Assembly (NCBI GenBank): GCA_020724765.1
Contig: DYGJ01000007.1
Location: 1 to 33,010 of the forward strand
Direction of reading: 5' to 3'
DNA: 33,010 nt
From: Thermotoga sp.
GTDB taxonomy: Bacteria > Bipolaricaulota > Bipolaricaulia > Bipolaricaulales > Bipolaricaulaceae
Positions 9,115 to 33,010 of this stretch are shown in pieces. The stretch's first letter is position 1. Each line of letters begins with the position of its first letter. The notes under the pieces were generated by a model. The model was not told where the DNA came from. It saw only the letters and a program-made list of their open reading frames with translations, and ran no database searches. A program made the position numbers and the translations under genes.

Positions 9115-11028
<1,914 letters not shown>

Positions 11029-17312: not shown

Positions 17313-17999
17313 GTGAGGGACAACATGGCCGAGCTCAAAGACTTCCGCGTGTTCGCGGACCTGAAACCGGACGACCTGAAGAAGTTGGGTGCGTTGGTAC
17401 GATCCATCGACTACGGCGCGGAAGAGCTTCTGTTCATGGAAGGGGCCCCCGCGTTCGGGTTCTACCTCGTGTTCTCCGGCGCGGTGAAGCTCGTCAAACG
17501 CTCGTCCAAGGGCAAGTCCCAGATCCTGAAGATCGTCGGCCCGGGCGGGCTGGCCGGAGAGACGACCCTCTTTGACAAAGGCCTCCACAACGCGTACGCG
17601 AAGACCCTCATCCCGTCCAAGATCGGGTTTATCGAGCGCGGGGACTTCTTCTACTTCCTCGAGCACTACCCGAAGACCGTGTTCCGCTTTTTCGAGCACA
17701 TCTCTCAAGAGCTGAAGGCTTTTCAGAACAAGCTTGCCGAGCGGTCGTACGCCTCGTCCAAAGAGCGGCTGTCCCGTCTCATCCTCGCCTTGGATCGGCT
17801 TCATCTCGAGCTGTCGCGAGCCGAGCTGGCCGAGATGGCAGGCGTCTCTTCGAAGACCGCGATTCGGACGCTCGGGGAACTTGAGTCCCGGGGCATCGTC
17901 GCCATCAACAACCGGCGGATCTCGGTTCTCAAGGAAGACTACCTGAAACGCCTCATCGAACCATACTCCGTCCACAACGACGAAGCCGTGATCATCTGA
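17313..17999 (+). CDS. Crp/Fnr-family transcriptional regulator
   Basis: Cyclic-nucleotide-binding fold (GAEELLFMEGAPAFGFYLVFSGAVKLVKRS) and HTH LSRAELAEMAGVSSKTAIRTLGELESRGIV; ATG 17325 is an alternative start. Confidence 0.88.
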   Translation: MRDNMAELKDFRVFADLKPDDLKKLGALVRSIDYGAEELLFMEGAPAFGFYLVFSGAVKLVKRSSKGKSQILKIVGPGGLAGETTLFDKGLHNAYAKTLIPSKIGFIERGDFFYFLEHYPKTVFRFFEHISQELKAFQNKLAERSYASSKERLSRLILALDRLHLELSRAELAEMAGVSSKTAIRTLGELESRGIVAINNRRISVLKEDYLKRLIEPYSVHNDEAVII

Positions 18000-18020
18000 T
18001 CCTCGATTTGCAGGGACGGG

Positions 18021-19940
18021 GTGATCCGTGTCCTTGGCGGAGGGTTGGTGATTAGGGATAGTCGGGCGATGTCACGCGAGAAGCTGACCCAACGCAGGCG
18101 GATGTGGGTAGCGGTGGGTCTGTACGTGGTATGCGCTTCAGTCCTGTGGGGAACTGCAATCCCGTTCGGATGGGACATGGCTGTGGGAGCGGAGCTTCCT
18201 GTCCTGCTGTCCGTGCTGGGCGTGGTTCTGTTCATCGTGTCGTTTCTGTTGGGGTGGTCTGGGACGCTCGTTGCCTGGGCGGGGGCGGGGCTGCTGACGC
18301 TGCCGCTCTTGGTGATCCCGGAGTTCATGCTCTCCCAGCCGGTGATGGGGGCGGTGATCCCGGTTCTGTTTGCGGGCATCGCTGTTCTCGGGAGAGGCGT
18401 GGGGTTCTTGTGGGGCCAACGGACTTGGCACCGAGAGACCCGCGAGATGGTGGAGGACTGCTACGGCCGTGACCTGTTCGAGAACTCGCTCAACATCATC
18501 CACGTGGTGAGCAACCGAGGGAACGTGAACCGACGCAACCGGCGGTCGCGGGAGCTGTTGGGTTGGCCTGATCGGCAGTCGCTCCAGATTTCGGCGTACG
18601 TGCACCCTGAGGACACTGACCACTTCAAAGACCTGTTGAAGACCCTCTTCGAGCGGGGCGAGTTGCGCCAGGAACGGCTGCGCTTCCGATCAGAGGGAGG
18701 CCGTGCGATCACCGTGGACATCCAAGGGCGGCGGGTCACGGGCACGGTGGCCGTGCTCGAAGCCCAGGACCGATCCGAGGTTCAATCCCTCGAACACAAG
18801 CTGCGCGAGCAGGAGGCGCGGTATCGGTTCTTGATCGAGGACGGGATCGACACCCTCGATCTGGGTGTCATCCTGTGGGACGAGCGGAAGCGCATGCTGT
18901 GGGCGAATCAGGCGGTGAACGAGCTGTTTAGGATCGACCGCGATGAGCTGGTCGGATTGCCCGCGGATCGCGTTTGGGGAAGAATCGCCGCGCTTCTCGA
19001 CAACGCGGATGACTACGTGGCCCTGGTCAGGGACGCGTACCGGTCTGGCGCAGGGGTGGAGCACTTCGTGACGCGCATTCGCCCTGGCTCCGGCGCGGTG
19101 GAACGGGTTATCCAGTACCGCTCCATCCCCATCGAGACAGCCCGCTACCGCGGGGGGCGCATTGACTACTACGCGGACATCACCGAGCTCAAGCGATTGG
19201 AAGAGGAGTTGCGCCAGGAGAAGGCCCAGCTCGATGAGGTGAACAAGAACCTGAGGAACTTCAGCGACGTGGTGTCGCACGACCTGCGCAACCCGACGCG
19301 CACCGCCCTCGGCTACCTCACCTTGATCCTCGATCGTCACAGCAATGGCGAGCTTCCTCCTGAGGTGCGCGCTGACCTGGAGAAGGCTCAAGCCCGGTTG
19401 AGGCGGCTGGACCAGCTCATCGTGGACCTCACCAAGTTCTCCCAAATGAGGGTCGATCCGTTCCGGTTCGAAGAGGTCGACGCGGGGAAGCTGGTCCAAG
19501 AGGTATGCGAGGATCTGGGCGACCGGATCAAATCGGTGAGCGTGACGATCGCCGACGACCTGCCCCGGGTGTGGGCGGTGCCGTCGCTGTTGCGGGATGT
19601 GTTCCAGAACTTGATCTACAACGCCGCCAAGTTCAACGACAAGGCGTTGCCGATGGTGGAAGTGGGATGGAAGCCCTATCGCGGGGACTCATACCTCTTC
19701 TACGTGCGGGACAACGGTCCTGGCATCGAAGCCGACTATCTGGACATCATCTTCAAGATCTTCGAGAAGCTGGATACGAAAACCGAAGGCACCGGGGCCG
19801 GCTTGGCGATATGTCGCCGGATCGTGGAAGAGCACGAGGGGCGGATATGGGCGGAGTCGGAAATTGGCATCGGAACCACGTTCAGCTTCACGATTCCCCG
19901 GGTGCCGGCGAACAAAGGGGTGGAGAGCGATGCCCGTTGA
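18021..19940 (+). CDS. PAS-containing membrane sensor histidine kinase
   Basis: N-terminal TM segments, PAS-like regions, FSDVVSHDLRNPTRTALGYL, N-box NLIYNAAKFND, G-boxes VRDNGPGIEA and GTGAGLAICRRIVEEH. Confidence 0.88.
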   Translation: MIRVLGGGLVIRDSRAMSREKLTQRRRMWVAVGLYVVCASVLWGTAIPFGWDMAVGAELPVLLSVLGVVLFIVSFLLGWSGTLVAWAGAGLLTLPLLVIPEFMLSQPVMGAVIPVLFAGIAVLGRGVGFLWGQRTWHRETREMVEDCYGRDLFENSLNIIHVVSNRGNVNRRNRRSRELLGWPDRQSLQISAYVHPEDTDHFKDLLKTLFERGELRQERLRFRSEGGRAITVDIQGRRVTGTVAVLEAQDRSEVQSLEHKLREQEARYRFLIEDGIDTLDLGVILWDERKRMLWANQAVNELFRIDRDELVGLPADRVWGRIAALLDNADDYVALVRDAYRSGAGVEHFVTRIRPGSGAVERVIQYRSIPIETARYRGGRIDYYADITELKRLEEELRQEKAQLDEVNKNLRNFSDVVSHDLRNPTRTALGYLTLILDRHSNGELPPEVRADLEKAQARLRRLDQLIVDLTKFSQMRVDPFRFEEVDAGKLVQEVCEDLGDRIKSVSVTIADDLPRVWAVPSLLRDVFQNLIYNAAKFNDKALPMVEVGWKPYRGDSYLFYVRDNGPGIEADYLDIIFKIFEKLDTKTEGTGAGLAICRRIVEEHEGRIWAESEIGIGTTFSFTIPRVPANKGVESDAR

Positions 19941-20370
19941 GAGGCGAATGATTGTCCTCGTGGTGGAAGACGACGAGTCTCACTACGAGCTGATCGAAAG
20001 GTCCGTGCGCGGCCTCGAGAAGGCCGGGACGCGGTACGACCTACATTGGGTCCAGGACGGGGCCGAGGCCTTGGACTTCCTGTTTCGCAAAGGGAAGCGC
20101 AAGGAGGCTCCCCGTCCGAACCTCGTGCTGCTTGACCTCCGGCTTCCCAAGAAGTCGGGGCTAGAAGTCCTCGAGGAGATCAAGAAAGACGAGAAACTCC
20201 GCAAGATCCCGGTGGTGGTCCTCACCGTGTCCACGAGCGACGAGGAGATGGCGCGGGCGTACGATTCCGGGGCGGCGGGGTTCCTCAACAAGCCGGCGAG
20301 TCAGGACGATTTCGATCGCCTTCTGAACACGGTTTGGGACTACTGGCGGATCGTTCGCGTTCCTGACTGA
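19930..20370 (+). CDS. Single-domain response regulator, Rcp1-like
   Basis: VVEDDESHYELI, LVLLDLRLPKKSGLEVLEEIK, VVVLTVSTSDEE, GFLNKPAS; overlaps the kinase 3' end. Confidence 0.9.
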   Translation: MPVERRMIVLVVEDDESHYELIERSVRGLEKAGTRYDLHWVQDGAEALDFLFRKGKRKEAPRPNLVLLDLRLPKKSGLEVLEEIKKDEKLRKIPVVVLTVSTSDEEMARAYDSGAAGFLNKPASQDDFDRLLNTVWDYWRIVRVPD

Positions 20371-20767: not shown

Positions 20768-21928
20768 GTGCGTAAGTGGCTGGGTTTGGCGTTGGTCGTG
20801 ATGTTGGCGGCAACGCCGGTGTTTGCCGGCAAAGTGGCGGTGGTCCTCGACGTCGGCGGACGAGGCGACCTCTCGTTCAACGACATGGGGTTCAAGGGTA
20901 CGGATCAGGCGGCCGACGACTTCGGCCTGGAGATGGTCGAGGTTCAGAGCGCAACGGCGGCGGACTACCTGCCGAACCTGCGCAACCTCGCCCGAACCCG
21001 CGAGTACGACCTCATCATCTGCGTGGGGTTCCTCCTCGGCGACGCGCTCGACCAGGCGGCGGCGGAGTTCCCGAACCAGAAGTTCGCGATCATCGACTCG
21101 GTCGTCGATGCGCCGAACGTGATGAGCATCGTGTTCCGCGAGAACGAGATGTCTGCTCTTGTGGGCGCGCTCGGGGCGATGGCCGCCGCTCACTACGGCT
21201 ACCCGAACGTGGGCGTGGTGCTCGGGATCGAGATCCCGGTTTTGTACCACTTCGAGGCCGGGTACCGGTTCGGCATCGACTGGGGGAACAAGAAGTACGC
21301 CGCGGTGACGGGAACGGCAAAACCGACGGGCCTTCTGTACACGTACACTGGGTCGTTCAGCGACATCGCGCTGGGGAAGGCGGCCACCGAGGCCATGCTC
21401 GCCCAGGGCGCGGTCGGGGTGTACAACGTGGCGGGGCCGCTCGGGATCGGCGACCTCGAGGCGATCACCGAGTTCCACCGCAACAAGGGAACCAAGTCCG
21501 GCCCGCCGTACTACTTTGGTGTGGACGCGAACCAGGACTGGCTTGGGAAGGCCATGCACGCGCTTGCGAGCGGGATGAAGCGGGTGGATACCGGCTGCTA
21601 CACCGCGGTGAAGGCCGTGGTGGAGGGGACGTTCGTCGGTGGCATCACCAGCCTCGGCCTCGCCGAGGGTGGCGTGGGAATCAGCAAATTCATCGATCTC
21701 CTTGAGTTCATCGACTTCGGCATCTCTGCCGGCGCGCTGAGGCTCGAGGACCGCGACGAGACCCTTGCTAACTGGGCGGTCAACCGTGGGACGATCCCTG
21801 CGTGGATCTGGCGGGCGGTTGATGAGCTCGAGGCCGGGATCCTCGACGGGACGATCCTTGTTCCGACCGCGGATACGGGGGCCGAGATGCAGGCCATCCG
21901 CGCCCGGTACACGCTGGGCGCGCCGTAG
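20768..21928 (+). CDS. BMP-family ABC transporter substrate-binding protein
   Basis: GTG start, signal peptide KWLGLALVVMLAATPVFA, KVAVVLDVGGRGDLSFNDMGFKG, IICVGFLLGDALDQAAAEFPNQKFAIID. Confidence 0.9.
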   Translation: MRKWLGLALVVMLAATPVFAGKVAVVLDVGGRGDLSFNDMGFKGTDQAADDFGLEMVEVQSATAADYLPNLRNLARTREYDLIICVGFLLGDALDQAAAEFPNQKFAIIDSVVDAPNVMSIVFRENEMSALVGALGAMAAAHYGYPNVGVVLGIEIPVLYHFEAGYRFGIDWGNKKYAAVTGTAKPTGLLYTYTGSFSDIALGKAATEAMLAQGAVGVYNVAGPLGIGDLEAITEFHRNKGTKSGPPYYFGVDANQDWLGKAMHALASGMKRVDTGCYTAVKAVVEGTFVGGITSLGLAEGGVGISKFIDLLEFIDFGISAGALRLEDRDETLANWAVNRGTIPAWIWRAVDELEAGILDGTILVPTADTGAEMQAIRARYTLGAP

Positions 21929-21951
21929 GCTCAGTTCAGTGAGAAAGCACA

Positions 21952-21982
21952 GGGGAGAGGGCGCCCAGCGCACCCTCTCCCC
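21952..21982 (+). terminator. Hairpin after the substrate-binding protein gene (partial terminator or mRNA stabiliser)
   Basis: GGGGAGAGGG...CCCTCTCCCC, 10-bp stem followed by TTGTTCTTCC. Confidence 0.6.
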
Positions 21983-22017
21983 TTGTTCTTCCTGCGTCAG
22001 CGTCCGGAGGCGCGTGC

Positions 22018-23625
22018 ATGAGCCAGACCTCAAACCGTAGCGACACAGAGAAAGGAGACGGGTACTTCCTTCGGGCGGAGGGGATCAGCAAGATCTACTC
22101 TGACGGCACGGTTGCACTTCGGGATGCGACCGTGGAGCTCCGTCCCGGGGAGATCGTGGGTCTCCTCGGTGAGAACGGGGCAGGCAAGACCACCCTCACC
22201 AAGATCCTGTCCGGACTTCTTCCCCCGACACGGGGCAGGGTGGTATCTCCGCGAGGCCAGGTGAAGTTCGCCAGCCCGCGCGAGGCCCTCGACTTCGGGA
22301 TCGGGATGGTCCACCAGCACTTCGCCCTCGTAGGCACGTTCACCGCGGTGGAGAACGTGGCGTTGTCCCACGAGCGCCCGTTCGTGCCCCTCACCCTGTC
22401 GGCAACGCGGGAGCGGCTGGAGGGGCTGATGGCGGAGAGCGGGCTCAAGGTCCCGCTCGATGTTCCTGTGGAGAAGCTCGCCGTGGGCGAGCAGCAGCGG
22501 GTGGAGATCCTCAAGGTTCTGTCCCAGAACGTGAACCTCCTCATCCTCGATGAGCCCACCTCCGTGCTCACCCCGCTCGAGGTCGATGAGCTGTTCAAGC
22601 TCCTACGGCGACTGCGGGACGAGGGGAAGGCGATCGTCCTCATCACCCATAAGCTGAAAGAGGTGGGTTCGATCACCGACCGCGTGATCGTCCTGCGCAA
22701 GGGCGCGGTGGTGGGCGATGTGCAGATGGCTGAAGTGACGAAAGAGGAACTGGCCCAGCTCATGGTGGGGAAGGAGATCGGGACTCGGGCCGCGCAGGCG
22801 GTCGAGCTCTCAACCGACGCCATCCCCGTCCCCATCAGCCGGCACAAGGAAGAGGCCAAGCGAGGATCTGGAGTTCTCCACGTCGAGAACCTGTCGGTCG
22901 CCGGGGATACGAAGTCGAAGGCCGTGGATGGTCTCACGTTCGATGTCTTCGGCGGGGAGATCTTCGGGATCGCTGGGGTAGAGGGCAACGGCCAGACCGA
23001 GCTTGTCGAAGCGCTGACCGGGCTCCGCCCCGCGATGGAGGGAACGGCGACGATCCACGAGAAGAACATCCTCGGCTTGGATCCTCGCCAGATTTACAAG
23101 CTCGGGGTGGCGCACATCCCTGAGGATCGCTGGGTGCTGGGGCTTGTCCTCCCATTCACCCTCGCCGAGAACGCGATCCTCGGCGTCCACCGGTGGGAGG
23201 AGTTCCGGGGCCCTCTGTCCATCCTCCGCTGGGGGAAGATCAACGCCCACGTGCGGGCGCTCATGGAGCGGTTCGAGATCCAGGCCACCGGCCCCAGCGC
23301 TCCAGCGAAGAGCCTGTCGGGCGGCAACCAACAGAAGTTGATCGTGGGGAGGGAACTCGCCAAGGACCCGGCGATTGTGATCGCCTCCCAGCCCACGCGC
23401 GGTCTGGACGTGGGAGCGGCCCAGTACATCCGGGACACTTTGGTCGAGATGCGCGATCGGGGGCGCGCGATCCTCCTCGTATCGGCGGACCTCGACGAGG
23501 TGCTCGCCCTATCCGATCGGGTGGCGATCATGTACGAGGGGAAGTTCATGGCCGTGGCCCGGCCCGAGGAGCTGGACCGGCAGAAGGTGGGGATGCTCAT
23601 GGGCGGCGTAGGGGTGAAAGGATGA
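22018..23625 (+). CDS. Nucleoside-type ABC transporter ATPase with two ABC domains
   Basis: GLLGENGAGKTTLTKILSGL, VAVGEQQRVEILKVL, second domain GVEGNGQTELVEAL, LSGGNQQKLIVGRELAKDPAIVIASQPTRGLDVGAA. Confidence 0.93.
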   Translation: MSQTSNRSDTEKGDGYFLRAEGISKIYSDGTVALRDATVELRPGEIVGLLGENGAGKTTLTKILSGLLPPTRGRVVSPRGQVKFASPREALDFGIGMVHQHFALVGTFTAVENVALSHERPFVPLTLSATRERLEGLMAESGLKVPLDVPVEKLAVGEQQRVEILKVLSQNVNLLILDEPTSVLTPLEVDELFKLLRRLRDEGKAIVLITHKLKEVGSITDRVIVLRKGAVVGDVQMAEVTKEELAQLMVGKEIGTRAAQAVELSTDAIPVPISRHKEEAKRGSGVLHVENLSVAGDTKSKAVDGLTFDVFGGEIFGIAGVEGNGQTELVEALTGLRPAMEGTATIHEKNILGLDPRQIYKLGVAHIPEDRWVLGLVLPFTLAENAILGVHRWEEFRGPLSILRWGKINAHVRALMERFEIQATGPSAPAKSLSGGNQQKLIVGRELAKDPAIVIASQPTRGLDVGAAQYIRDTLVEMRDRGRAILLVSADLDEVLALSDRVAIMYEGKFMAVARPEELDRQKVGMLMGGVGVKG

Positions 23626-24770
23626 CCACAACAGACGTTCGTCCGCGGGGGCGATGGGTGCGGGGGGTGCACCGCACGCTCACCGGGCTCCATCCCGCGT
23701 TGGAGTCGGTGCTGGCGGCGGTAGTGGGGCTGCTGGTGGGGGCGGTGCTCATGTACATCTGGGGGTACGACCCGTGGCGGGCGTACTGGGCCCTCTTGCG
23801 GGGGGCGTTCGGCGGGGACTACGAGATCGCCAGTTCCATTGCCCGAGGCGTTCCACTCATCTTCACCGCGCTCACGTTCTCGATCTGTCTGCGGGCGGGG
23901 ATGTTCAACATCGGCGCCGAGGGCCAGATGTACATCGGGGCGGCAGCCGCGGTGTGCGTGGCCTACTTCCAGCTCCCGGCCGGGCTCCACCTCTTCGTGG
24001 GGATCCTGTTCGCCGCCGTGGCCGGAGCCGTGTGGAGCCTCGGGCCGGCCCTTCTCAAACTCACCCGGGGGGTGAGCGAGGTCATCTCCACGATCATGTT
24101 CAACTGGATCAGCCGGTTCCTCGTGTTCTACCTCGTGGCGTTCGTTCTCGTCGACCCGCGCCAAGCCCAGCGCACGGTGCGGATCCCCGTCTCGGCGCGG
24201 TTCCCGATTCTTGTCCAAGGGACCGACCTCTCGTACGCGGTGTTCATGGCGGTGGCGTTCGCCCTGCTGGTGTACGTGGTCCTGTGGCACACGGCGGTCG
24301 GGTACGAGGTGCGGGCAGCCGGTCTTACCCCCACGGCGGCCCGCTACGGCGGGATCTCGATCAAGCGCACGATGTTGTTGAGCTTCGCCCTGGGCGGCGT
24401 GGCCGCAGGGCTCGCCGGTGCGGCGACGACGATGGGACTCCCCCCCACGTTTGCCATCATCAGCGGGCTCCCCGAACTGATGAACCTCGGGTTCGACGGG
24501 ATGGCGGTGGCGATGGTGGGCCGGAACCACCCCATCGGGATTTTGTTTGCCGCCCTGTTCTTCGGCGGCCTCAACGCCGGAGGGCGGGTGATGCAGTTCT
24601 ATGGGTCGAATCCCGTCCCTCTGGAGATGGTGCGGGTGGTGATGGGGGCGATCGTGCTGGCGATGGCGATCCCTGAGCTGATTCGGCTGTTCCCCGCGCT
24701 GGCCGAAGCGGGACGTGGACTGGCGCGAACCATCGCCCGGCGGAAGCCGGCGACAGAGGAGGGAGCATGA
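23622..24770 (+). CDS. ABC transporter permease, BMP/nucleoside-associated, permease 1
   Basis: FSICLRAGMFNIGAEGQMYIGA, ISTIMFNWI, GLPPTFAIISGLPELMNLGFDGMAVAMVGRNHPIGI. Confidence 0.9.
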   Translation: MTTTDVRPRGRWVRGVHRTLTGLHPALESVLAAVVGLLVGAVLMYIWGYDPWRAYWALLRGAFGGDYEIASSIARGVPLIFTALTFSICLRAGMFNIGAEGQMYIGAAAAVCVAYFQLPAGLHLFVGILFAAVAGAVWSLGPALLKLTRGVSEVISTIMFNWISRFLVFYLVAFVLVDPRQAQRTVRIPVSARFPILVQGTDLSYAVFMAVAFALLVYVVLWHTAVGYEVRAAGLTPTAARYGGISIKRTMLLSFALGGVAAGLAGAATTMGLPPTFAIISGLPELMNLGFDGMAVAMVGRNHPIGILFAALFFGGLNAGGRVMQFYGSNPVPLEMVRVVMGAIVLAMAIPELIRLFPALAEAGRGLARTIARRKPATEEGA

Positions 24771-25660
24771 ACTGGAGCTACGTCCTTGATCTTCTGCGGA
24801 TCTCCCTCCACGCGATGGTGCCGATCACCCTCACCGCGGTGGGGGAGATCATTGGAGAGACCGCGGGCCTGTTCAACATCGGGCTCGAGGGGATCCTCCT
24901 CATTGGCGCGTTCGTGGGGGCGCTCGGGGCGAAGGCCGGCGGCCCGGTCGTCGGTTTGCTGACAGGGATGGGTGTGGGGATGGCGATCGGGCTGGTGTTC
25001 TCCATCATCTCCGCTTACTGGAAGGGAACCCAGATGATCGCCGGAATCGGGATCAACCTGTTCGCACTGGGGTTCGTGGCGTTCGGGCTGATCAAGCTCG
25101 GCGCGCCCGGGTTCCACGCCGTCCCCGCCGAGGCCCAGCTCCTCAAGCTGCGCACGCCGATGGGTGCGCTCTCGCCCCTGATCCTCGTTGCCCTCGTCGT
25201 GCCGTTCCTGGCGTACTGGTTCCTGAAGCGAACCCGCGCCGGGCTCATCCTCAAGGCCGTCGGGGAGAACCCCGAGGCGGCGGACGTGGCGGGGATCAAC
25301 GTCAACCTGACTCGGCTCCTGGCCACGACGTTCGGCGGGGCGCTGGCGGGCCTGGCCGGGGCGTACATGTCGGTGGCATGGTTCGGATCGGTGACCAAGG
25401 AGCTGTCCGCGGGTCGCGGGTTCATCGCGTTGGCCACGGTGGTGTTCTCTGGGCTCAACCCGCTCCTTGCCCTTGTGGGAGGGTTCATCTTCGGGTTCTT
25501 CCAGAGCCTTGCCACGTGGATCAAGACCCTGCCCGCCAAGACGATCCCCTGGCAGTTCGTGGACATGCTCCCCTACATCGTGACCCTGCTCGTCGTGTCG
25601 GGGGTCGTGGGGCGGGTGCGGTTCCCGAAGGCGCTTGGGGTGCCGTACAAACGGGAGTGA
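24767..25660 (+). CDS. ABC transporter permease, BMP/nucleoside-associated, permease 2
   Basis: AVGEIIGETAGLFNIGLEGILLIGAFVGA, QMIAGIGINLFALG, GENPEAADVAGINV, GRGFIALATVVFSGLNPLLALVGGFIFGF. Confidence 0.9.
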   Translation: MNWSYVLDLLRISLHAMVPITLTAVGEIIGETAGLFNIGLEGILLIGAFVGALGAKAGGPVVGLLTGMGVGMAIGLVFSIISAYWKGTQMIAGIGINLFALGFVAFGLIKLGAPGFHAVPAEAQLLKLRTPMGALSPLILVALVVPFLAYWFLKRTRAGLILKAVGENPEAADVAGINVNLTRLLATTFGGALAGLAGAYMSVAWFGSVTKELSAGRGFIALATVVFSGLNPLLALVGGFIFGFFQSLATWIKTLPAKTIPWQFVDMLPYIVTLLVVSGVVGRVRFPKALGVPYKRE

Positions 25661-26640
25661 GGGCGCATCCGATCGTCGCCCTGCTGGGCGATCTGAACGT
25701 AGACGTGACGATCCAGGCGGGTGCGGTGCCTCCGCCGGGTGGCGAGGCGCACGCCGAGACCGCTCTGTCCGTGGGAGGCTCCGCGGCGCTCACCGCACGC
25801 TGGCTCTCCGTGCTCGGATGCGAGGTGCGGCTGGCGGCAGCGATCGGCGAAGACCCGTTTGGAGATTGGGTCCACAGCGCGTTGTCTCAGGAGGGCGTCC
25901 TGACCTCGTGGCTTCAGCGCGTTCCGGACAAGCCGACTGGGCTCTGTTTCGCCCTTGTCCACCCTGGCGGGGAGCGAACGCTGCTCGCCTCGCCCGGCGC
26001 CGCGCGGGATCTCTCGTGGGGTGCGATCCCGACGTCCTGGCTGGACGGAGCCGACTGGCTGCACCTCTCCGGGTACGCCTGGGCGGGGGAGGGGGAGTGC
26101 GACGCGGCGGAGCGAGCGCTCCGCCTCGCTCGAGAGAGGGCGGTTCCGGTGAGCCTCGATCCAGGAGCCGTAGCCGGAACCCTCTGTACCGCCCTCGATC
26201 CGCTGCCAGCGTTCGAGCTCGTGCTTCCCAATCGCCGGGAGATCCGGGATCTGACCGGAGAGGGCGATCCGCAGCGTGGGGCGGCGCAGCTCCGTGGTCG
26301 CGGCGTGGGGTCGGTGGCGGTGAAGCTCGACCGGGAGGGGTGCCTCATCTCCGTTCGGGTGGGCGAGGCCCGCGTTCCTGCCTTCGCGGTGGACGCGGGG
26401 AACACGACCGGCGCGGGGGACGCGTTCAACGCGGGAGCGATCGTAGGGACCCTCTCGGGCTGGGACCCTGCGGCGATTGGCGCCTTGGCGAACCTTCTCG
26501 GCGGGGCGGCGGCGCGCGTTGGAGGGGGAGGCGCTCTGCCCTCGCTTCCCGCTCTTCTCTCTCTTCTCGAACAGGCGCCGGGGGGGAGTACCCTGGGGAC
26601 GTGGCTTCAGGAACGATGGAAGGGGGACACATGGCGGTAG
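25657..26640 (+). CDS. PfkB-family carbohydrate kinase (substrate unknown)
   Basis: GDLNVDVTIQ near N-terminus, SVGGSAALTARWLSVLGCEVRLAAAIGEDPFGDWV, DAGNTTGAGDAFNAGAI; GTG start overlaps the upstream TGA. Confidence 0.88.
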   Translation: MRAHPIVALLGDLNVDVTIQAGAVPPPGGEAHAETALSVGGSAALTARWLSVLGCEVRLAAAIGEDPFGDWVHSALSQEGVLTSWLQRVPDKPTGLCFALVHPGGERTLLASPGAARDLSWGAIPTSWLDGADWLHLSGYAWAGEGECDAAERALRLARERAVPVSLDPGAVAGTLCTALDPLPAFELVLPNRREIRDLTGEGDPQRGAAQLRGRGVGSVAVKLDREGCLISVRVGEARVPAFAVDAGNTTGAGDAFNAGAIVGTLSGWDPAAIGALANLLGGAAARVGGGGALPSLPALLSLLEQAPGGSTLGTWLQERWKGDTWR

Positions 26641-27482
26641 AGTGGAAGAGACGGTGGGATGAGCTGCGGATCGCGTCGCTGCGCGATTTGTTCGGGGTCG
26701 AGGTGCCGGTGATCGGGATGGTCCACCTGTGGCCCCTTCCCGGCGCGCCGGGGTACACCGGGTACGGGATGGACGCGATCCTCGACGCTGCCCTCGCCGA
26801 CGCGCGGGCCCTTGTTCGGGGAGGGGTGGATGGGCTGATCGTGGAGAACATGTGGGATCTCCCGTTTCACGTGGGGAAGGCCGTGCCTCCCGAGGAGAGC
26901 GCGTGTCAGGCTGTGGCCGCCCGAGCGGTGGCCGAGGAGGTCTCGGTCCCGGTGGGGATCAACGTCGTCCACAACGGAGGCGCGGTCGCCCTGGCGATCG
27001 CCGTTGCCAGCGGCGCAGCATTCATGCGCGTGTGCCTCCTCACCGGGGCCCAGGTTTGGGACACGGGCGAGTTCGACCACGGCTGCGCCGCGGAGCTTAT
27101 GCGCAAGCGGAAGGAACTCCACGCCGAGCACATCAAGCTGTTCGCCGACGTCGACAAGAAGCACGCCGTGCGGTTTCCGGGGATCGACCTCGCCACCCAC
27201 ATCGAATGGACCGAGTTCTACGGTGCGGATGCCCTCATCGTCTCCGGCCGGATGACCGGGAACGCCCCCGACGTGGAGAAGGTCCGCGCGGCGAAGGAGC
27301 TTGCCCACCGCCCTGTTCTCGTCGGGTCGGGAGCGAACGAGCGGAACATCGGGGCATTCCTGCGCTGGGCGAACGGGGTCATCGTTGGGTCGAGCCTGAA
27401 GGCCGATGGAGACCCTACGAACCCGGTGGACGAGGAGCGGGTGGTGCGGTTCGTGGCCGCCGCCCGTGCGGGGGGGTGTTGA
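26631..27482 (+). CDS. BtpA/SgcQ-family TIM-barrel protein, copy 1
   Basis: PVIGMVHLWPLPGAPGY, GVDGLIVENMWDLPF, GINVVHNGG, KLFADVDKKHAV, ADALIVSGRMTGNAPDVEKV, PVLVGSGANERN. Confidence 0.88.
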   Translation: MAVEWKRRWDELRIASLRDLFGVEVPVIGMVHLWPLPGAPGYTGYGMDAILDAALADARALVRGGVDGLIVENMWDLPFHVGKAVPPEESACQAVAARAVAEEVSVPVGINVVHNGGAVALAIAVASGAAFMRVCLLTGAQVWDTGEFDHGCAAELMRKRKELHAEHIKLFADVDKKHAVRFPGIDLATHIEWTEFYGADALIVSGRMTGNAPDVEKVRAAKELAHRPVLVGSGANERNIGAFLRWANGVIVGSSLKADGDPTNPVDEERVVRFVAAARAGGC

Positions 27483-28279
27483 CCGTGCCGCTTTCGTGGC
27501 CCCCGAGCTCCCGTCCGTTGATCGGGGTGATCCACCTGCCTCCCCTTCCCGGGACGCCGCGGTGCCCGGGGGGCGGGCTCGAACCGATCCTCGCCCGAGC
27601 CCGGGCGGATCTCGCGGCCCTCGAGGCCGGCGGAGCGGACGGGGCGATCGTGGAGAACTACGGCGACGCTCCGTTCCGCAAGCGGGCGGACTTGGTTACG
27701 GTGGCCGCGATGGCGATCGTCGTCCGCGAGCTCGCCCAGGCGGCGCGGATCCCGTTGGGGGTGAACGTTCTTCGCTCCGACGGCCCGGCCGCGATGGCGA
27801 TCGCTTCCCTGGCCAGGGCGGCGTTCATCCGCGTGAACGTGTTCGCCGGGGTCGCGCTCACCGATCAGGGCCTGATCGAAGGTCAGGCACGGGAAGTCCT
27901 CGACCTCCGCCGTGCCTTGGGTGCCGGTGTGGTCGTGCTCGCCGATGTCCACGTGAAGCACGCCGTGCACCTCGACACCCTGGAGGCCGCGGCGCGGGAC
28001 GTCGCCCGCAATGGGCCCGACGCCCTGATCGTCACCGGCGGTGCGACGGGAGATCCCGCGCTTCCCGAGGACGTGCAGGCGGCGAAGGCCGCCTCCGGGC
28101 TCCCCGTGTTCGTGGGGAGCGGCATCGGCCTGGACAACATGGGGCTCTACGCGCACGCCGACGGGTTCATCGCGGGGACCGCCCTCAAGGTGGACGGGAC
28201 GACGGCGAACGCGGTGGACCCGGATCGGGTTCGGGCGCTCGTCCGGGCGCGGGATCGCCTCGTCCGAGCGGAGGAGTAG
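27476..28279 (+). CDS. BtpA/SgcQ-family TIM-barrel protein, copy 2
   Basis: PLIGVIHLPPLPGTPRCPGG, GADGAIVENYGDAPF, LGVNVLRSDG, VVLADVHVKHAV, DALIVTGGATGDP, FVGSGIGLDN; GTG start overlaps copy 1. Confidence 0.9.
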   Translation: MLTVPLSWPPSSRPLIGVIHLPPLPGTPRCPGGGLEPILARARADLAALEAGGADGAIVENYGDAPFRKRADLVTVAAMAIVVRELAQAARIPLGVNVLRSDGPAAMAIASLARAAFIRVNVFAGVALTDQGLIEGQAREVLDLRRALGAGVVVLADVHVKHAVHLDTLEAAARDVARNGPDALIVTGGATGDPALPEDVQAAKAASGLPVFVGSGIGLDNMGLYAHADGFIAGTALKVDGTTANAVDPDRVRALVRARDRLVRAEE

Positions 28280-28291
28280 GTCTACGGAGGG

Positions 28292-28297
28292 TATAAT
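28292..28297 (+). promoter_or_regulatory. -10 TATAAT upstream of the phnD-like gene
   Basis: gagggTATAATgcg, about 24 bp before GTG 28322; AGGAGGTGG Shine-Dalgarno follows. Confidence 0.55.
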
Positions 28298-28321
28298 GCG
28301 TCACACCTAGGAGGTGGTGCT

Positions 28322-29335
28322 GTGAAGCGGATTCTGCTGGCAGCGTTGGTAACGTTGGTGGCGCTCGGGGCGACGGGCCTCGCTCAGGCGCTCGGCACGC
28401 GGGACAACCCGATCATCTGGGTGTTCCCCCCGTCCACGCGCGCTGAAGTGATCGAGACGACGGCGAAGCAGATCGCCGAGGCGATCGGGAAGGCGACCGG
28501 GCTATACATCATCCCGAGGGTGATGCCGGACTACGCGGCCCTGATCGAGGCGTTCAAGGCCGCGGAGGGGAACGTGATGGGCACCCCGACCACGGACCAG
28601 TACGCGCGGATCTCCGTGGAGACGAACTTCGGGGCCCACGCCCGCCTGGCGGCGGTGCGCCGCGGGTACTCGTTCTACTTCTCCAGCATCTACGTCCCCC
28701 GCGCCGCGGGCTACACCTCGATCCAGGACCTCGCCGGGAAGATCTGGATCTACAACGACGAGGGATCCACTTCGGGCTACGTGTTCCCGAAGGGCGTGTT
28801 CGACGACGAGGGGATCGTGGTCGGCGGCGTCGTGAAGTCGGGTGGACACACGAACTCGATGATCGCGCTCCTCAAGGGACAGGGCGACTTCTGCACAAGC
28901 TACGGCTCGCCGCCGGAGCCGTATGCAGGCTACGAGGGTCCGAAGTGGGACTACGGGATGGACCCCGAGATGTGGCTGTGGGACAAGGAGAACAACGCCC
29001 TCTACCCGCCCGAGCTGCTCGGCACGTGCGTCGACCTGAGGCAGGCGGCATCGCGGGTCGAGGGGATGGGCACCCTGGCCGAAATCATCGAGAAGATCAC
29101 GGTTCTTGATACCATCGGCCCTCTGCCGAACGACTGCATCGCGTTCAGCGCCGGGTTCCCGATCCGCGTCGAGAACGCGATCGTGGCTGCGATCATCGCC
29201 CACATCCGCTCTCCAGAGGGCTACGCCCTGTGGAGCAACCCCAACTTCTACGAGTGGACGGACGTCGAGCTCATCGACGACTCGTACTACGCTACCTACC
29301 GGACGATCATCGGGTTGCCGAACCCGGAGCGGTAG
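28322..29335 (+). CDS. PhnD-like ABC transporter substrate-binding protein
   Basis: Signal peptide; MPDYAALIEAFKAAEGNVMGTPTTDQYA, SFYFSSIYVPRAAGYTSIQDLAGKIWIYNDEGSTSGYVFPKG. Confidence 0.85.
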   Translation: MKRILLAALVTLVALGATGLAQALGTRDNPIIWVFPPSTRAEVIETTAKQIAEAIGKATGLYIIPRVMPDYAALIEAFKAAEGNVMGTPTTDQYARISVETNFGAHARLAAVRRGYSFYFSSIYVPRAAGYTSIQDLAGKIWIYNDEGSTSGYVFPKGVFDDEGIVVGGVVKSGGHTNSMIALLKGQGDFCTSYGSPPEPYAGYEGPKWDYGMDPEMWLWDKENNALYPPELLGTCVDLRQAASRVEGMGTLAEIIEKITVLDTIGPLPNDCIAFSAGFPIRVENAIVAAIIAHIRSPEGYALWSNPNFYEWTDVELIDDSYYATYRTIIGLPNPER

Positions 29336-29361
29336 GCTCAGGTTGTGAGAACAGCGAGTAG

Positions 29362-29390
29362 CCGTGGGGGAGGGTACGCCTCCCCCACGG
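29362..29390 (+). terminator. 12-bp perfect hairpin between the phnD-like and phnC-like genes
   Basis: CCGTGGGGGAGG-GTACG-CCTCCCCCACGG followed by TTTGACT. Confidence 0.6.
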
Positions 29391-29400
29391 TTTGACTCCC

Positions 29401-30174
29401 ATGCCGACCCCCTACCTGGTCATCGACGGGCTGACGAAGGTCTACGAACGCGGTCAGGTTCACGCCCTGCGCGGTCTAAGCTTCAGCGTCGAGAAGGGCG
29501 AGTTTCTGGTGGTCATCGGGCTTTCCGGTTCGGGGAAGTCCACCCTGCTGCGGTGCATCAACCGCCTCATTGAGCCGACCGAGGGGAAGATTTGGCTGGA
29601 TGGCACAGACGTGGCGCGCCTGTCCGCCAAGCGGATGCGGCGCGTGCGCCGCCGGATCGGGATGATCTTCCAGCAGTTCAACCTTGTCGATCGGGCCACG
29701 ACCGTGCGCAACGTGCTTACCGGGCGGCTGGGGTACATGCCGGGATGGAGGTCGCTCCTCGGCCTGTTCTCGTCCCAGGATAAGCAGACGGCGCTGGCCA
29801 ACCTAGAGCGGGTCGGGTTGCGCGACAAGGCGTACGCCCGTGTGGACGAGCTGTCCGGCGGGCAGCGGCAGCGGGTGGGAATCGCCCGGGCCCTGATGCA
29901 GAAGCCGGAGATCCTCCTCGCCGACGAGCCCGTGAGCGCCCTCGACCCAGCGACCTCGCACTCCATCATGCAGTACCTGGAGCAGATGAACCGCCAAGAC
30001 GGGGTGACCGTGATCGCCAGCCTCCACTTCCTGTCGCTGGCCCGGCGCTACGGGACGCGGATCATCGCGCTCAAGGACGGCCAGCTCGTGTTCGACGGCC
30101 CGCCGAAGACGATCGACAACGCCAAGTTCAAAGAGATCTACGGCGAGGACGCCGAAGAAGTCGAGGTAAGGTGA
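29401..30174 (+). CDS. PhnC-like ABC transporter ATP-binding protein
   Basis: [92 protein letters not shown]. Confidence 0.9.
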   Translation: MPTPYLVIDGLTKVYERGQVHALRGLSFSVEKGEFLVVIGLSGSGKSTLLRCINRLIEPTEGKIWLDGTDVARLSAKRMRRVRRRIGMIFQQFNLVDRATTVRNVLTGRLGYMPGWRSLLGLFSSQDKQTALANLERVGLRDKAYARVDELSGGQRQRVGIARALMQKPEILLADEPVSALDPATSHSIMQYLEQMNRQDGVTVIASLHFLSLARRYGTRIIALKDGQLVFDGPPKTIDNAKFKEIYGEDAEEVEVR

Positions 30175-31448
30175 GCTCAACGCCGGGAGGGACGGGCGCT
30201 CCGCAGGACCGCCTGAAGGTCCTCTCCCGCCGCGCGTTTTCGTTCCTTCTTGACTGGATGGCATGGGGATACGTCGCGTACTGCGTGATGTACCTCCTCA
30301 ACTACTACTGGTACACCGTCCACGTGGACTGGTGGGGGACGCTCACCCTTCCGTCCTGGGGCTGGCCGGTGGTGATCCTCTCCACGCTTGAGCTCGCGGT
30401 GTGGTGCCGCTCGCTCGGGCGCAGCCTCGGCCAGCGAGCGATCGGCGTGGCCCTCCGGCCTGTGGCGGGGGAGCGCATCCGCCTCGGTCGAAGGGTCCTG
30501 CGTGGGTTCCTCTGGCACCTGTCCGTGCCCTTTGCCCCGGTGTGGATCGCGCGGGGGGAGGAACCTCTCCACGACCGGCTGACGCAGGTGGGTCTGCGAA
30601 CGGAGACCCCAGATCCCGAGCGGCCTGGCCGCCGGGCGATTCTCACCCAGTGGGGGTTCTTCTCCCTGTTCCTCGCCGCCCTCACGATGTGTGTGGGGTG
30701 GCTCATCATCGGAATCAACCTCCAAGTGTTGATCCGCCGGGCGCCTCAGGCGGGCCGGATCTGGGGCGAGATGCTCCGCCCCGACTTCCGTTACTTCACC
30801 GCTCCGGATCCCGTATTCCACCTGCGCGCGCTCAGCTACTCGATCCTCGACCTCACCGTCGTCACCGTGTTCATGGCTCTTGTGGCGACGGTACTCGGCG
30901 GAGTGATGGCGTTTCCGCTGTCGTTCCTCGGGGCGCGGAACGTGATGGGATTCAGCCCGGCGGGCTGGGCGACGTACGGCGTGATCCGCGGGTTCTTCAA
31001 CGTGTTTCGCTCGATCGAGACGATCATCTGGGCGTCGATCTTCGCGATCTGGGTCGGCTACGGAACCGTCCTCGCCGGGATCCTCGCCCTCACCATCCAC
31101 ACGATCGCCGCCCTGGGGAAGCTCTACTCCGAGCAGGTGGAGGGCGTGTCCCCCGGTCCGCTGGAGGCGGTGTGGGCTGCCGGCGGGAGCCGGATTCAGG
31201 TGGTACGCCACGCCGTGATCCCCCAAGTCCTCCCGAGCTTCTGGGCGTTCACCCTCTACCGGTGGGACATCAACGTGCGCATGGCCACCGTGATCGCCCT
31301 CGTGGGCGGGGGCGGAATCGGGGACATGTTGTTCTACTACAAGAACCAGGGTGACTGGTCGAAGGTGGGAGCGGTGGTGATGGTGATCGTCGCCGTGGTG
31401 TGGGCGATGGACTACATCTCCGGCCGCCTCCGGGAGCGGATCGCATGA
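30171..31448 (+). CDS. PhnE-like permease with an N-terminal RDD-like membrane domain, copy 1
   Basis: C-terminal FRSIETIIWASIFAIWVGYG...EAVWAAGGSRIQVVRHAVIPQVLPSFWAFTLYRWDINVRMATVIALVGGGGIGDML; N-terminal RRAFSFLLDWMAWG...GRSLGQRAIGVALRPV. Confidence 0.85.
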   Translation: MSSTPGGTGAPQDRLKVLSRRAFSFLLDWMAWGYVAYCVMYLLNYYWYTVHVDWWGTLTLPSWGWPVVILSTLELAVWCRSLGRSLGQRAIGVALRPVAGERIRLGRRVLRGFLWHLSVPFAPVWIARGEEPLHDRLTQVGLRTETPDPERPGRRAILTQWGFFSLFLAALTMCVGWLIIGINLQVLIRRAPQAGRIWGEMLRPDFRYFTAPDPVFHLRALSYSILDLTVVTVFMALVATVLGGVMAFPLSFLGARNVMGFSPAGWATYGVIRGFFNVFRSIETIIWASIFAIWVGYGTVLAGILALTIHTIAALGKLYSEQVEGVSPGPLEAVWAAGGSRIQVVRHAVIPQVLPSFWAFTLYRWDINVRMATVIALVGGGGIGDMLFYYKNQGDWSKVGAVVMVIVAVVWAMDYISGRLRERIA

Positions 31449-32698
31449 CCGGCTACCCCGAGGGCTACACCTCCCCGCGGCCGGCGTGGACGACCGGACG
31501 GGGCCTGTACAACGCCCTCGCCCGCCGGGCCGACGTCGCGGCCAAGTACTTCGCCGTGTTCCTCCTGGATGCAGGCGGGCTCGCCGCCCTATGGCTCCTC
31601 GTCACCTACGCCTACGCCTGGTACGTGCTCGACATCACCGCTTACATCCTCGTTCCATGGTGGGTGTTCGCCTTGGGCGTGGTGGAGGGGGCGATCCTGT
31701 GGGAGAGCTTGGGCAGATCGTGGGGCCAGAAGGCGCTCGGCCGCGAGCTCACCCCTGTCTCAGCCGAGGCGACGCCCATTCGGAGGCTCCTCTACTTCGT
31801 CCTCTGGAACCTGTTCAGCCTCACCGGGATTGGGTTCGTCTTCGTTCCGCCGCTGCACGAGCGGTGGTCCGGGCTGGGGCTGCGGCGCGAGCGACCGTCC
31901 TCTCAGGCCCCGGTCCCGTGGTACCGAACATCGGCGGGCTTGTTCGTCGCCGTGCTTCTGGTCGTCACCCTGGTCTCCGCATTGGGAGTCACGCTGACGT
32001 GGGAATCGTTGCGGCGCCTGTTCACCCAGGCCGGGCAGACCGTCGAGTTCTGGCGGGCCCTCGTTCGGCCCGATACCACGATCCTTCTCGACGCGATGCG
32101 GGACATGATCGTCACCGTGTTCATGGCGGTGTTGGCCACGTTGTTCGCGGTCGCGGTATCGGTCCCCTTGTCGTTCCTCGCCGCGCGGAACCTCATGCGC
32201 GGCCCGGTCGGGCGGCCCATCTACACGATCATCCGCGGCGCGATGAGCGTCGCCCGCTCTATCGAGCCGATCGTGTGGGCGATCATCTTCCTCGTCTGGG
32301 TGACCGCGTTGCGGTCCCCGTTCGCGGGGATCCTCGCCCTGTGGGTGCACTCCATCGCCGACCTCGTGAAGCTCTACGCCGAGCGGCTCGAGGCGATCGA
32401 CCAGGGGCCGATCGAGGCGATCACCGCCACCGGCGCCGGGCGCCTGTCCGTCCTGCGCTACGCGATCGTTCCCCAGATCGTGAACCCTTACATCTCGTTC
32501 ACCCTGTACCGGTGGGACATCAACATCCGCATGGCGACCGTGGTCGGGCTCGTGGGCGGCGGCGGGATCGGGCAGAGGCTCATCAACTACATCTGGGGTG
32601 TGCAATACCGCCAGGCGGGGACCGTGATGATCCTCATCGTGATCCTCGTGTGGGCGATCGACTACCTCTCCGCCCGGCTGCGGGCCAAGCTGGCGTAA
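31445..32698 (+). CDS. PhnE-like permease with an N-terminal RDD-like membrane domain, copy 2
   Basis: Start MTGYPEG; ARSIEPIVWAIIFLVWV...EAITATGAGRLSVLRYAIVPQIVNPYISFTLYRWDINIRMATVVGLVGGGGIG; N-terminal YFAVFLLDAGGLAALW...GRSWGQKALGRELTPV. Confidence 0.85.
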   Translation: MTGYPEGYTSPRPAWTTGRGLYNALARRADVAAKYFAVFLLDAGGLAALWLLVTYAYAWYVLDITAYILVPWWVFALGVVEGAILWESLGRSWGQKALGRELTPVSAEATPIRRLLYFVLWNLFSLTGIGFVFVPPLHERWSGLGLRRERPSSQAPVPWYRTSAGLFVAVLLVVTLVSALGVTLTWESLRRLFTQAGQTVEFWRALVRPDTTILLDAMRDMIVTVFMAVLATLFAVAVSVPLSFLAARNLMRGPVGRPIYTIIRGAMSVARSIEPIVWAIIFLVWVTALRSPFAGILALWVHSIADLVKLYAERLEAIDQGPIEAITATGAGRLSVLRYAIVPQIVNPYISFTLYRWDINIRMATVVGLVGGGGIGQRLINYIWGVQYRQAGTVMILIVILVWAIDYLSARLRAKLA

Positions 32699-32704
32699 CA
32701 AGAC

Positions 32705-32732
32705 AGTCGCAAGTCCCAAGTCGCAAGTCGAG
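32705..32732 (+). repeat. Heptameric tandem repeat AGTCGCA-AGTCCCA-AGTCGCA-AGTCGAG
   Basis: Exact 7-bp period over four units. Confidence 0.7.
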
Positions 32733-32773
32733 AACACCACACCTGTAAAGCACGTTGTAGACGTGAGTACAGC

Positions 32774-32808
32774 GTTATACATCCGTGTGTTATACAGCTT
32801 TGTATAAC
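32774..32808. promoter_or_regulatory. Candidate operator upstream of the phosphorylase: GTTATACA x2 plus inverted TGTATAAC
   Basis: GTTATACA(32774) 7 bp GTTATACA(32789) GCTT TGTATAAC(32801). Confidence 0.55.
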
Positions 32809-32866
32809 GTGCGCTGCGAGGATCTGTGGGCAGGGCCATCCTGACTGCAGTAGGATCAGGGTGATC

Positions 32867-33010
32867 ATGCGCGCGGTGGATCTGATCGAGAAGAAGCGCG
32901 ACGGGGGCGAGCTCGCCCCAAGCGAGATCGGCTGGCTTGTCGCGGAGTACGTGGCGGGCCGCGTGCCCGACTACCAGATGTCGGCGTTCCTCATGGCCGT
33001 CTACTTCCGG
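32867..33010 (+). CDS. Pyrimidine-nucleoside/thymidine phosphorylase, N-terminal fragment cut by the window edge
   Basis: MRAVDLIEKKRDGGELAPSEIGWLVAEYVAGRVPDYQMSAFLMAVYFR matches the family N-terminus. Confidence 0.85.
   Translation, partial: MRAVDLIEKKRDGGELAPSEIGWLVAEYVAGRVPDYQMSAFLMAVYFR

Follow-up and report, generated by a model that had tools for sequence, protein, structure and literature searches.

A conserved Bipolaricaulota gene block joining a BMP-type importer, a PfkB kinase and two BtpA proteins: a probable nucleoside-salvage locus

Haloarchaea have a PfkB-family ribose-1-phosphate kinase together with a ribose-1,5-bisphosphate (R15P) isomerase (PMC9700705), and in Thermococcus kodakarensis the BMP-family importer NupDABC brings in nucleosides that feed a pentose bisphosphate pathway (PMC12628685). 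The locus described here also has a BMP-type importer and a PfkB kinase, and these are followed by two proteins of the BtpA family. It occupies positions 20768-33010 of a stretch of 33,010 nucleotides (the window), which is the entire contig 112 (DYGJ01000007.1) of a 1.70 Mb genome in 121 contigs, deposited as Thermotoga sp. (GCA_020724765.1) and placed in the Bipolaricaulota. BtpA/SgcQ proteins are widespread, with members in Escherichia coli, cyanobacteria, rhizobia and archaea, and have no established reaction; no biochemical study of BtpA, SgcQ, COG0434 or PF03437 was found in the literature searched. The theme of the locus is very probably nucleoside import and salvage, and on balance the block is regarded as a nucleoside-salvage locus in which PfkB and BtpA handle the released pentose. 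We infer all substrates and the BtpA reaction from the observed gene content, gene order, conservation, fold class and missing enzymes.

Seven genes, all on the forward strand, open the block. They encode a BMP/PnrA-type nucleoside-binding protein (20768..21928; PF02608, 145 bits), the double ATP-binding cassette (ABC) ATPase of the importer (22018..23625; two ABC_tran stretches), Permease A (23622..24770) and Permease B (24767..25660), both with BPD_transp_2, a PfkB-family kinase (25657..26640; PF00294, 156.7 bits), BtpA1 (26631..27482; PF03437, 250 bits) and its paralogue BtpA2 (27476..28279; PF03437, 266 bits; precise start uncertain). All seven proteins are well above the Pfam cut-offs. 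Direct reading of the sequence places stop/start overlaps at ATGA 23622 (ATPase stop and Permease A), ATGA 24767 (the two permeases) and GTGA 25657; the BtpA1 start ATG at 26631 overlaps the PfkB stop TAG at 26638-26640, and the BtpA2 start GTG at 27476 overlaps the BtpA1 stop TGA at 27480-27482. The genes and overlaps that a sequence-only reading had assigned to this region are thus borne out by open reading frames, sequence and Pfam families. That reading ended the block at 28279, which does not hold, as a PhnDCEE set (28322-32698) and a phosphorylase gene (32867) continue it.

Synteny within the genus was followed by tblastn in loci from ten other genomes; a simple open reading frame caller had failed at some high-GC loci (opposite-strand calls in L036, L040 and L042), and tblastn synteny was used there. 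The order BMP-ABC-PermA-PermB-PfkB-BtpA1-BtpA2-PhnD-PhnC-PhnE1-PhnE2 is complete in six genus genomes, and four more loci, cut by contig ends, have the same order wherever they are readable. For this reason the gene arrangement is not a matter of chance. Two BtpA genes are present in 11 of 12 genus genomes, that of the window included, the exception being 73% complete.

The genes beyond BtpA2, also on the forward strand, encode a PhnD-like binding protein (28322..29335), a PhnC-like ATPase (29392..30174; ABC_tran and synteny) and two PhnE-like permeases of about 420 amino acids (30171-32698; 30171..31448 and 31445..32698, both with BPD_transp_1), the first of which has an RDD-like N-terminal part (22.8 bits, cut-off 24.1). 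PhnC and the two permeases are joined by overlaps. The PhnD-like protein scores 85.3 bits with PF12974 (cut-off 27) but only 50.4 bits with the equivalog TIGR03431 (cut-off 261.1); its profile matches PtxB/PhnD structures at 7e-8 and the STSG motif is conserved. The probable cargo of PhnDCEE is a phosphonate or a phosphorus oxyanion. Core genes of carbon-phosphorus lyase and the phosphonate-degradation genes PhnJ, PhnI and PhnP were not found in the approximately 70% of genus genome G004 that was read.

Two genomes of the same family (L043 and L053) carry pyrBICFKDE between or beside the BtpA genes. L044 has NadC, NadA, NadB and a partial phosphorylase after PhnE2. These are nucleotide-metabolism contexts. 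Such settings also bear on the idea that two independent units are merely neighbours here, BMP-PfkB-BtpA1 serving nucleosides and BtpA2-PhnDCEE an unrelated phosphorus compound. The two modules are about 6 kb apart in L043, around the pyrimidine biosynthesis operon, BtpA2-PhnDCEE adjoins the Nad genes in L044, and a 42-base gap containing TATAAT lies between BtpA2 and PhnD in the window. The genus-wide fixed order of eleven genes and the pairing of BtpA2 and its relatives with PfkB as well argue for one unit, and the two-unit arrangement is held as a tentative possibility. Promoter matches at the locus were at about chance level in a promoter scan. A putative TudS-related desulfidase is encoded directly upstream of BtpA2, beside pyrimidine genes, at L053:9345-9908 and L043:3566-4141 (NF045597, 41 bits against 130); a role in thiouracil or thiouridine salvage is possible.

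The importer has the composition of a BMP-family transporter, namely a PF02608 binding protein, a double ATPase and two BPD_transp_2 permeases. In a phmmer search of the PDB, the binding protein matches 4pev (5e-59) and PnrA/TmpC 2fqw (3e-26), as well as BmpD and BmpA. Pocket segments that align with PnrA are SFN (from residue 36), FEAG (162), SFSD (196), GVD (251) and MKR (270), and the aromatic sandwich and polar pocket residues of the PnrA type are kept; the roles of these residues are those given in PMC13325309. The suggestion of nucleoside-type import, made earlier for this DNA, thus stands in outline as a prediction from sequence, with the nucleoside pocket kept and with nucleoside enzymes neighbouring the block both here and in distant relatives. 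Import of a compound other than a nucleoside, for instance a vitamin or modified sugar, with the cassette devoted to ordinary sugar catabolism, would agree with the resemblance of the ATPase and permeases to putative B6 and monosaccharide transporter models and with the presence of BtpA at ribose-type and FGGY sugar loci. This is quite improbable in view of the pocket and of the adjacent phosphorylase. A vitamin B6 importer in particular was ruled out, the B6 models being far under cut-off (the binding protein scores 42.8 bits where 400 are required). A strong GC-rich hairpin lies between the BMP and ATPase genes (21951-21983), of a kind able to raise expression of the binding protein over that of the membrane part.

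The last gene of the block encodes the 5' part of a pyrimidine-nucleoside phosphorylase on the forward strand (32867..33010), truncated by the contig end. The reading frame runs from an ATG at 32867, and the N-terminus matches TIGR02644 over 32876-33010. Complete copies are present downstream of PhnE2, within about 1.4 kb, in the genus genomes checked. Because of this phosphorylase, released pentose, as ribose-1-phosphate or ribose, is the likelier kinase substrate than a nucleoside. PfkB itself keeps the catalytic GAGD motif (residue 252); its best model matches are ribose-1-phosphate kinase (NF053626, 117.8 bits, cut-off 330) and ribokinase (99, cut-off 300), and its PDB matches include ribokinases. 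Kinases that partner BtpA at other loci have similar scores, with the ribokinase model first in some. That PfkB acts on the released pentose and not on the nucleoside is given about an even chance.

A nucleoside kinase activity of PfkB is a different proposition. The product would be a nucleoside 5'-phosphate that BtpA cleaves or rearranges, in the manner of pseudouridine kinase and pseudouridine-5'-phosphate glycosidase. The PfkB family does include nucleoside kinases, and there are weak matches to inosine/guanosine kinase and pseudouridine kinase; HisA/PriA, among the folds nearest to BtpA, act on phosphoribosyl compounds, and rhizobial plasmid loci have PfkB and BtpA with TenA and amidohydrolases, which could process a released base. 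The phosphorylase of the block, however, already splits base from sugar, the ribose-1-phosphate kinase and ribokinase matches are much stronger, and a ribose operon in which BtpA lies among the transport genes (L071, RbsB-BtpA-RbsD-PfkB-RbsC-RbsA) suggests free ribose as the substrate. Phosphorylation of the intact nucleoside is accordingly considered unlikely.

Both BtpA proteins are above the PF03437 and TIGR00259 cut-offs. BtpA1 was modelled with AlphaFold2 (mean predicted local distance difference test score 96, predicted template-modelling score 0.93), and Foldseek gives TrpA, HisA/PriA, ThiE, NanE, RPE, KDPGal aldolase and TrpF as the nearest solved folds, with query TM-scores of about 0.6 or less. 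The enzymes nearest in fold bind phosphorylated ligands, and BtpA models as a phosphate-binding triosephosphate isomerase (TIM) barrel. A sequence search of the PDB found no structure of the BtpA family; its matches were TrpA, over the C-terminal phosphate-binding half, and similar barrels. Residues E72, N73, D76, R133, D173, K177, T209, S233 and K257 are at least 97% conserved in 58 diverse BtpA sequences and are present in both copies of the window. Strand 2 ends in a Glu with an Asp after it, a feature that presumably resembles the catalytic region of TrpA and that we take as a lead only.

The sole role named for the family in NCBIfam is in photosystem I biogenesis, and a non-catalytic assembly or regulatory factor has been proposed in cyanobacteria. 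Such a role is very improbable here: the residues listed, S233 apart, are 97-100% conserved and kept in both copies, NF045918 gives 221.7 and 243.9 bits for the two proteins against a cut-off of 400, and the named relatives are from Candidatus Acetothermia/Bipolaricaulota. To our knowledge, Bipolaricaulota are not photosynthetic.

A maximum-likelihood tree, quickly built from 112 BtpA proteins with no bootstrap and with some long branches, is unreliable in its deep order. The BtpA1 clade has 18 members (Shimodaira-Hasegawa-like approximate likelihood-ratio test 100) and spans Bipolaricaulota, Chloroflexota, one Myxococcota metagenome-assembled genome and archaea; PfkB, BMP or nucleoside enzymes are near most of them. 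The BtpA2 clade, also of 18 members, is found in this sampling only in Bipolaricaulota, and FGGY-linked and PurD-linked BtpA proteins form separate groups.

BtpA neighbourhoods were surveyed in 151 genomes in each of two phyla, reached through L138 (Chloroflexota) and L148, the phylum of which we take to be Thermoproteota in the scheme of the genome collection; sixty neighbourhoods were read. BtpA is present in 25 of 151 and 45 of 151 genomes, respectively. A PfkB or FGGY kinase is the gene next to BtpA at 15 of 22 loci in Chloroflexota, 8 of 37 in Thermoproteota and 19 of 27 in Bipolaricaulota outside the genus; as a control, genes more than four positions from BtpA in the same three locus sets include one kinase in 617. 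Members of the BtpA1 subfamily have PfkB kinases as neighbours in Chloroflexota and also in archaea of the Thermoproteota and Nitrososphaeria. The PfkB-BtpA link proposed earlier therefore recurs across phyla. The accompanying expectation that BtpA and BMP genes occur together elsewhere is supported in the archaea (6 of 37 sampled Thermoproteota loci) and more weakly in Chloroflexota (1 of 22), where the PfkB paired with BtpA1 mostly has no BMP gene close by.

Several of these loci also hold genes for the import or breakdown of nucleosides. The neighbourhoods of L148 and L209 contain the BMP gene and/or those of its ATPase and permeases, together with one or two genes for PfkB, a pair for BtpA, and genes for a uridine-phosphorylase-like protein and a nucleoside hydrolase; L101, L210 and L218 are similar, and most of these loci also have DeoC; the uridine-phosphorylase-like protein is present in L138 and L148, and the hydrolase with DeoC in L148, L209 and L210. 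L138, from Anaerolineae, reads GntR-BMP-ABC-PermA-PermB-isochorismatase-PfkB-phosphorylase-aldehyde dehydrogenase-BtpA-DUF7916. Two further observations concern variant loci. PfkB-BtpA-PurD triads with a GntR regulator are found at L054:8616-11616 and L169:7166-11293; in L169, genes for an M42 peptidase and a BMP importer come next. The PurD homologue may serve something other than ordinary purine synthesis. A 418-amino-acid protein adjoins PermB at two archaeal BMP-PfkB-BtpA1 loci (L192:16648-17901 and L211:3776-5029); the L192 protein has a sub-threshold match to the central domain of L-arabinose isomerase.

The genus also has a characteristic set of missing enzymes. R15P isomerase of the IF-2B family was found in none of five genus genomes tested, and neither DeoB phosphopentomutase nor PurD above cut-off was found in any of 12. 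The PyrD family is absent from seven of the 12, strong in two and represented by a weaker match in three, including that of the window. Most genus genomes are incomplete assemblies in which single absences weigh little; agreement across the genus, single-contig G004 and G009 included, weighs more. On account of these absences, imported purines are apparently a necessity for the genus, as imported pyrimidines are for several members, and the customary routes for handling ribose-1-phosphate appear to be missing, unless a PGM/PMM-family protein does this. The part of G004 that was read encodes DeoC, RpiA, transketolase, RPE, Prs, Upp, Tdk and a cytidine-deaminase-like protein, and most genus members have one strong PNP/UDP-family gene.

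In the proposed pathway, the BMP ABC importer would take up nucleosides and the phosphorylase would convert pyrimidine nucleosides to base and (deoxy)ribose-1-phosphate. PfkB would then form ribose-1,5-bisphosphate from ribose-1-phosphate, or ribose-5-phosphate from ribose, and BtpA1 and BtpA2 would direct the phosphorylated pentose to central metabolism or phosphoribosyl pyrophosphate (PRPP) supply, in place of DeoB or R15P isomerase. Upp and other PRPP-dependent enzymes would rebuild the liberated bases. The pathway put forward in the sequence-only reading agrees with this in its import theme and PfkB-BtpA link; it had overlooked the phosphorylase and PhnDCEE.

Several points weigh against this pathway. 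PfkB is far under every curated kinase cut-off, and kinase partners at other BtpA loci score as high or higher as ribokinase. Phosphopentomutase activity could come from PGM/PMM-family proteins, of which most genus members have two, and the gene-by-gene reading of G004 covered only about 70% of its sequence. In some Bipolaricaulota, BtpA2 adjoins PfkB but no BMP gene was found in the vicinity, and some BtpA genes adjoin FGGY kinases, PurD or no relevant gene; the family is therefore not tied to nucleosides in general. There is good reason to believe that BtpA acts on a phosphorylated pentose or a phosphoribosyl compound. More speculative is the suggestion that it catalyses an undescribed step on a phosphopentose derived from nucleosides, perhaps an isomerisation or a retro-aldol cleavage of the TrpA kind, and that this step replaces phosphopentomutase or R15P isomerase in a pathway common to Bipolaricaulota, Chloroflexota and archaea. 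Any single named reaction is unlikely at best.

The conserved link between BtpA and a sugar kinase, together with the association of one cross-domain subfamily with the import and cleavage of nucleosides, makes the list of substrates short and the BtpA reaction directly testable. The locus also bears on how sugar is recovered from imported nucleosides in small genomes that lack de novo purine genes and often pyrimidine genes.

Immediately upstream of the BMP gene (17313-20370) are genes for a Crp-like regulator, a PAS histidine kinase and a response regulator, which stay adjacent to the block in several genus genomes; in L070, the same three regulator clusters adjoin BtpA. An open reading frame at 9439-11028 has, by eye only, a hallmark N-terminus of CTP synthase (PyrG).

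Among described systems, the archaeal pentose bisphosphate pathways (PMC9700705, PMC12628685) share with this locus nucleoside import, a nucleoside phosphorylase and a PfkB kinase that best matches the ribose-1-phosphate kinase model, but here BtpA stands in the place of the isomerase and the kinase is under the model cut-off. Membership of the known pathway was ruled out, as none of the five genus genomes tested yielded an IF-2B family protein. The bacterial deo pathway (DeoA, DeoB, DeoC) is similar in its pyrimidine-nucleoside phosphorylase and in the DeoC of the genus, whereas the genus has PfkB and BtpA and is without DeoB, for which reason the classical pathway was also ruled out. The E. 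coli sgc operon, in which SgcQ is the BtpA protein, likewise has BtpA next to genes for sugar transport and for an M42-type peptidase (SgcX), as L169 does; it differs in having phosphotransferase system transport and the SgcE epimerase, and neither a BMP importer nor a PfkB kinase. PhnD/PtxB phosphonate and phosphite importers share the binding-protein family and the STSG motif, but the PhnD of this locus is under equivalog cut-offs and one permease has the RDD-like N-terminus. The importers PnrA of Treponema and Streptococcus, BmpA/BmpD of Borrelia and NupDABC of T. kodakarensis share the binding-protein family, the pocket residues, the double ATPase and the two permeases; in the Bipolaricaulota block, an importer of this type, with a predicted ligand, is combined with a PfkB kinase, a pair of BtpA proteins, a phosphorylase and PhnDCEE.

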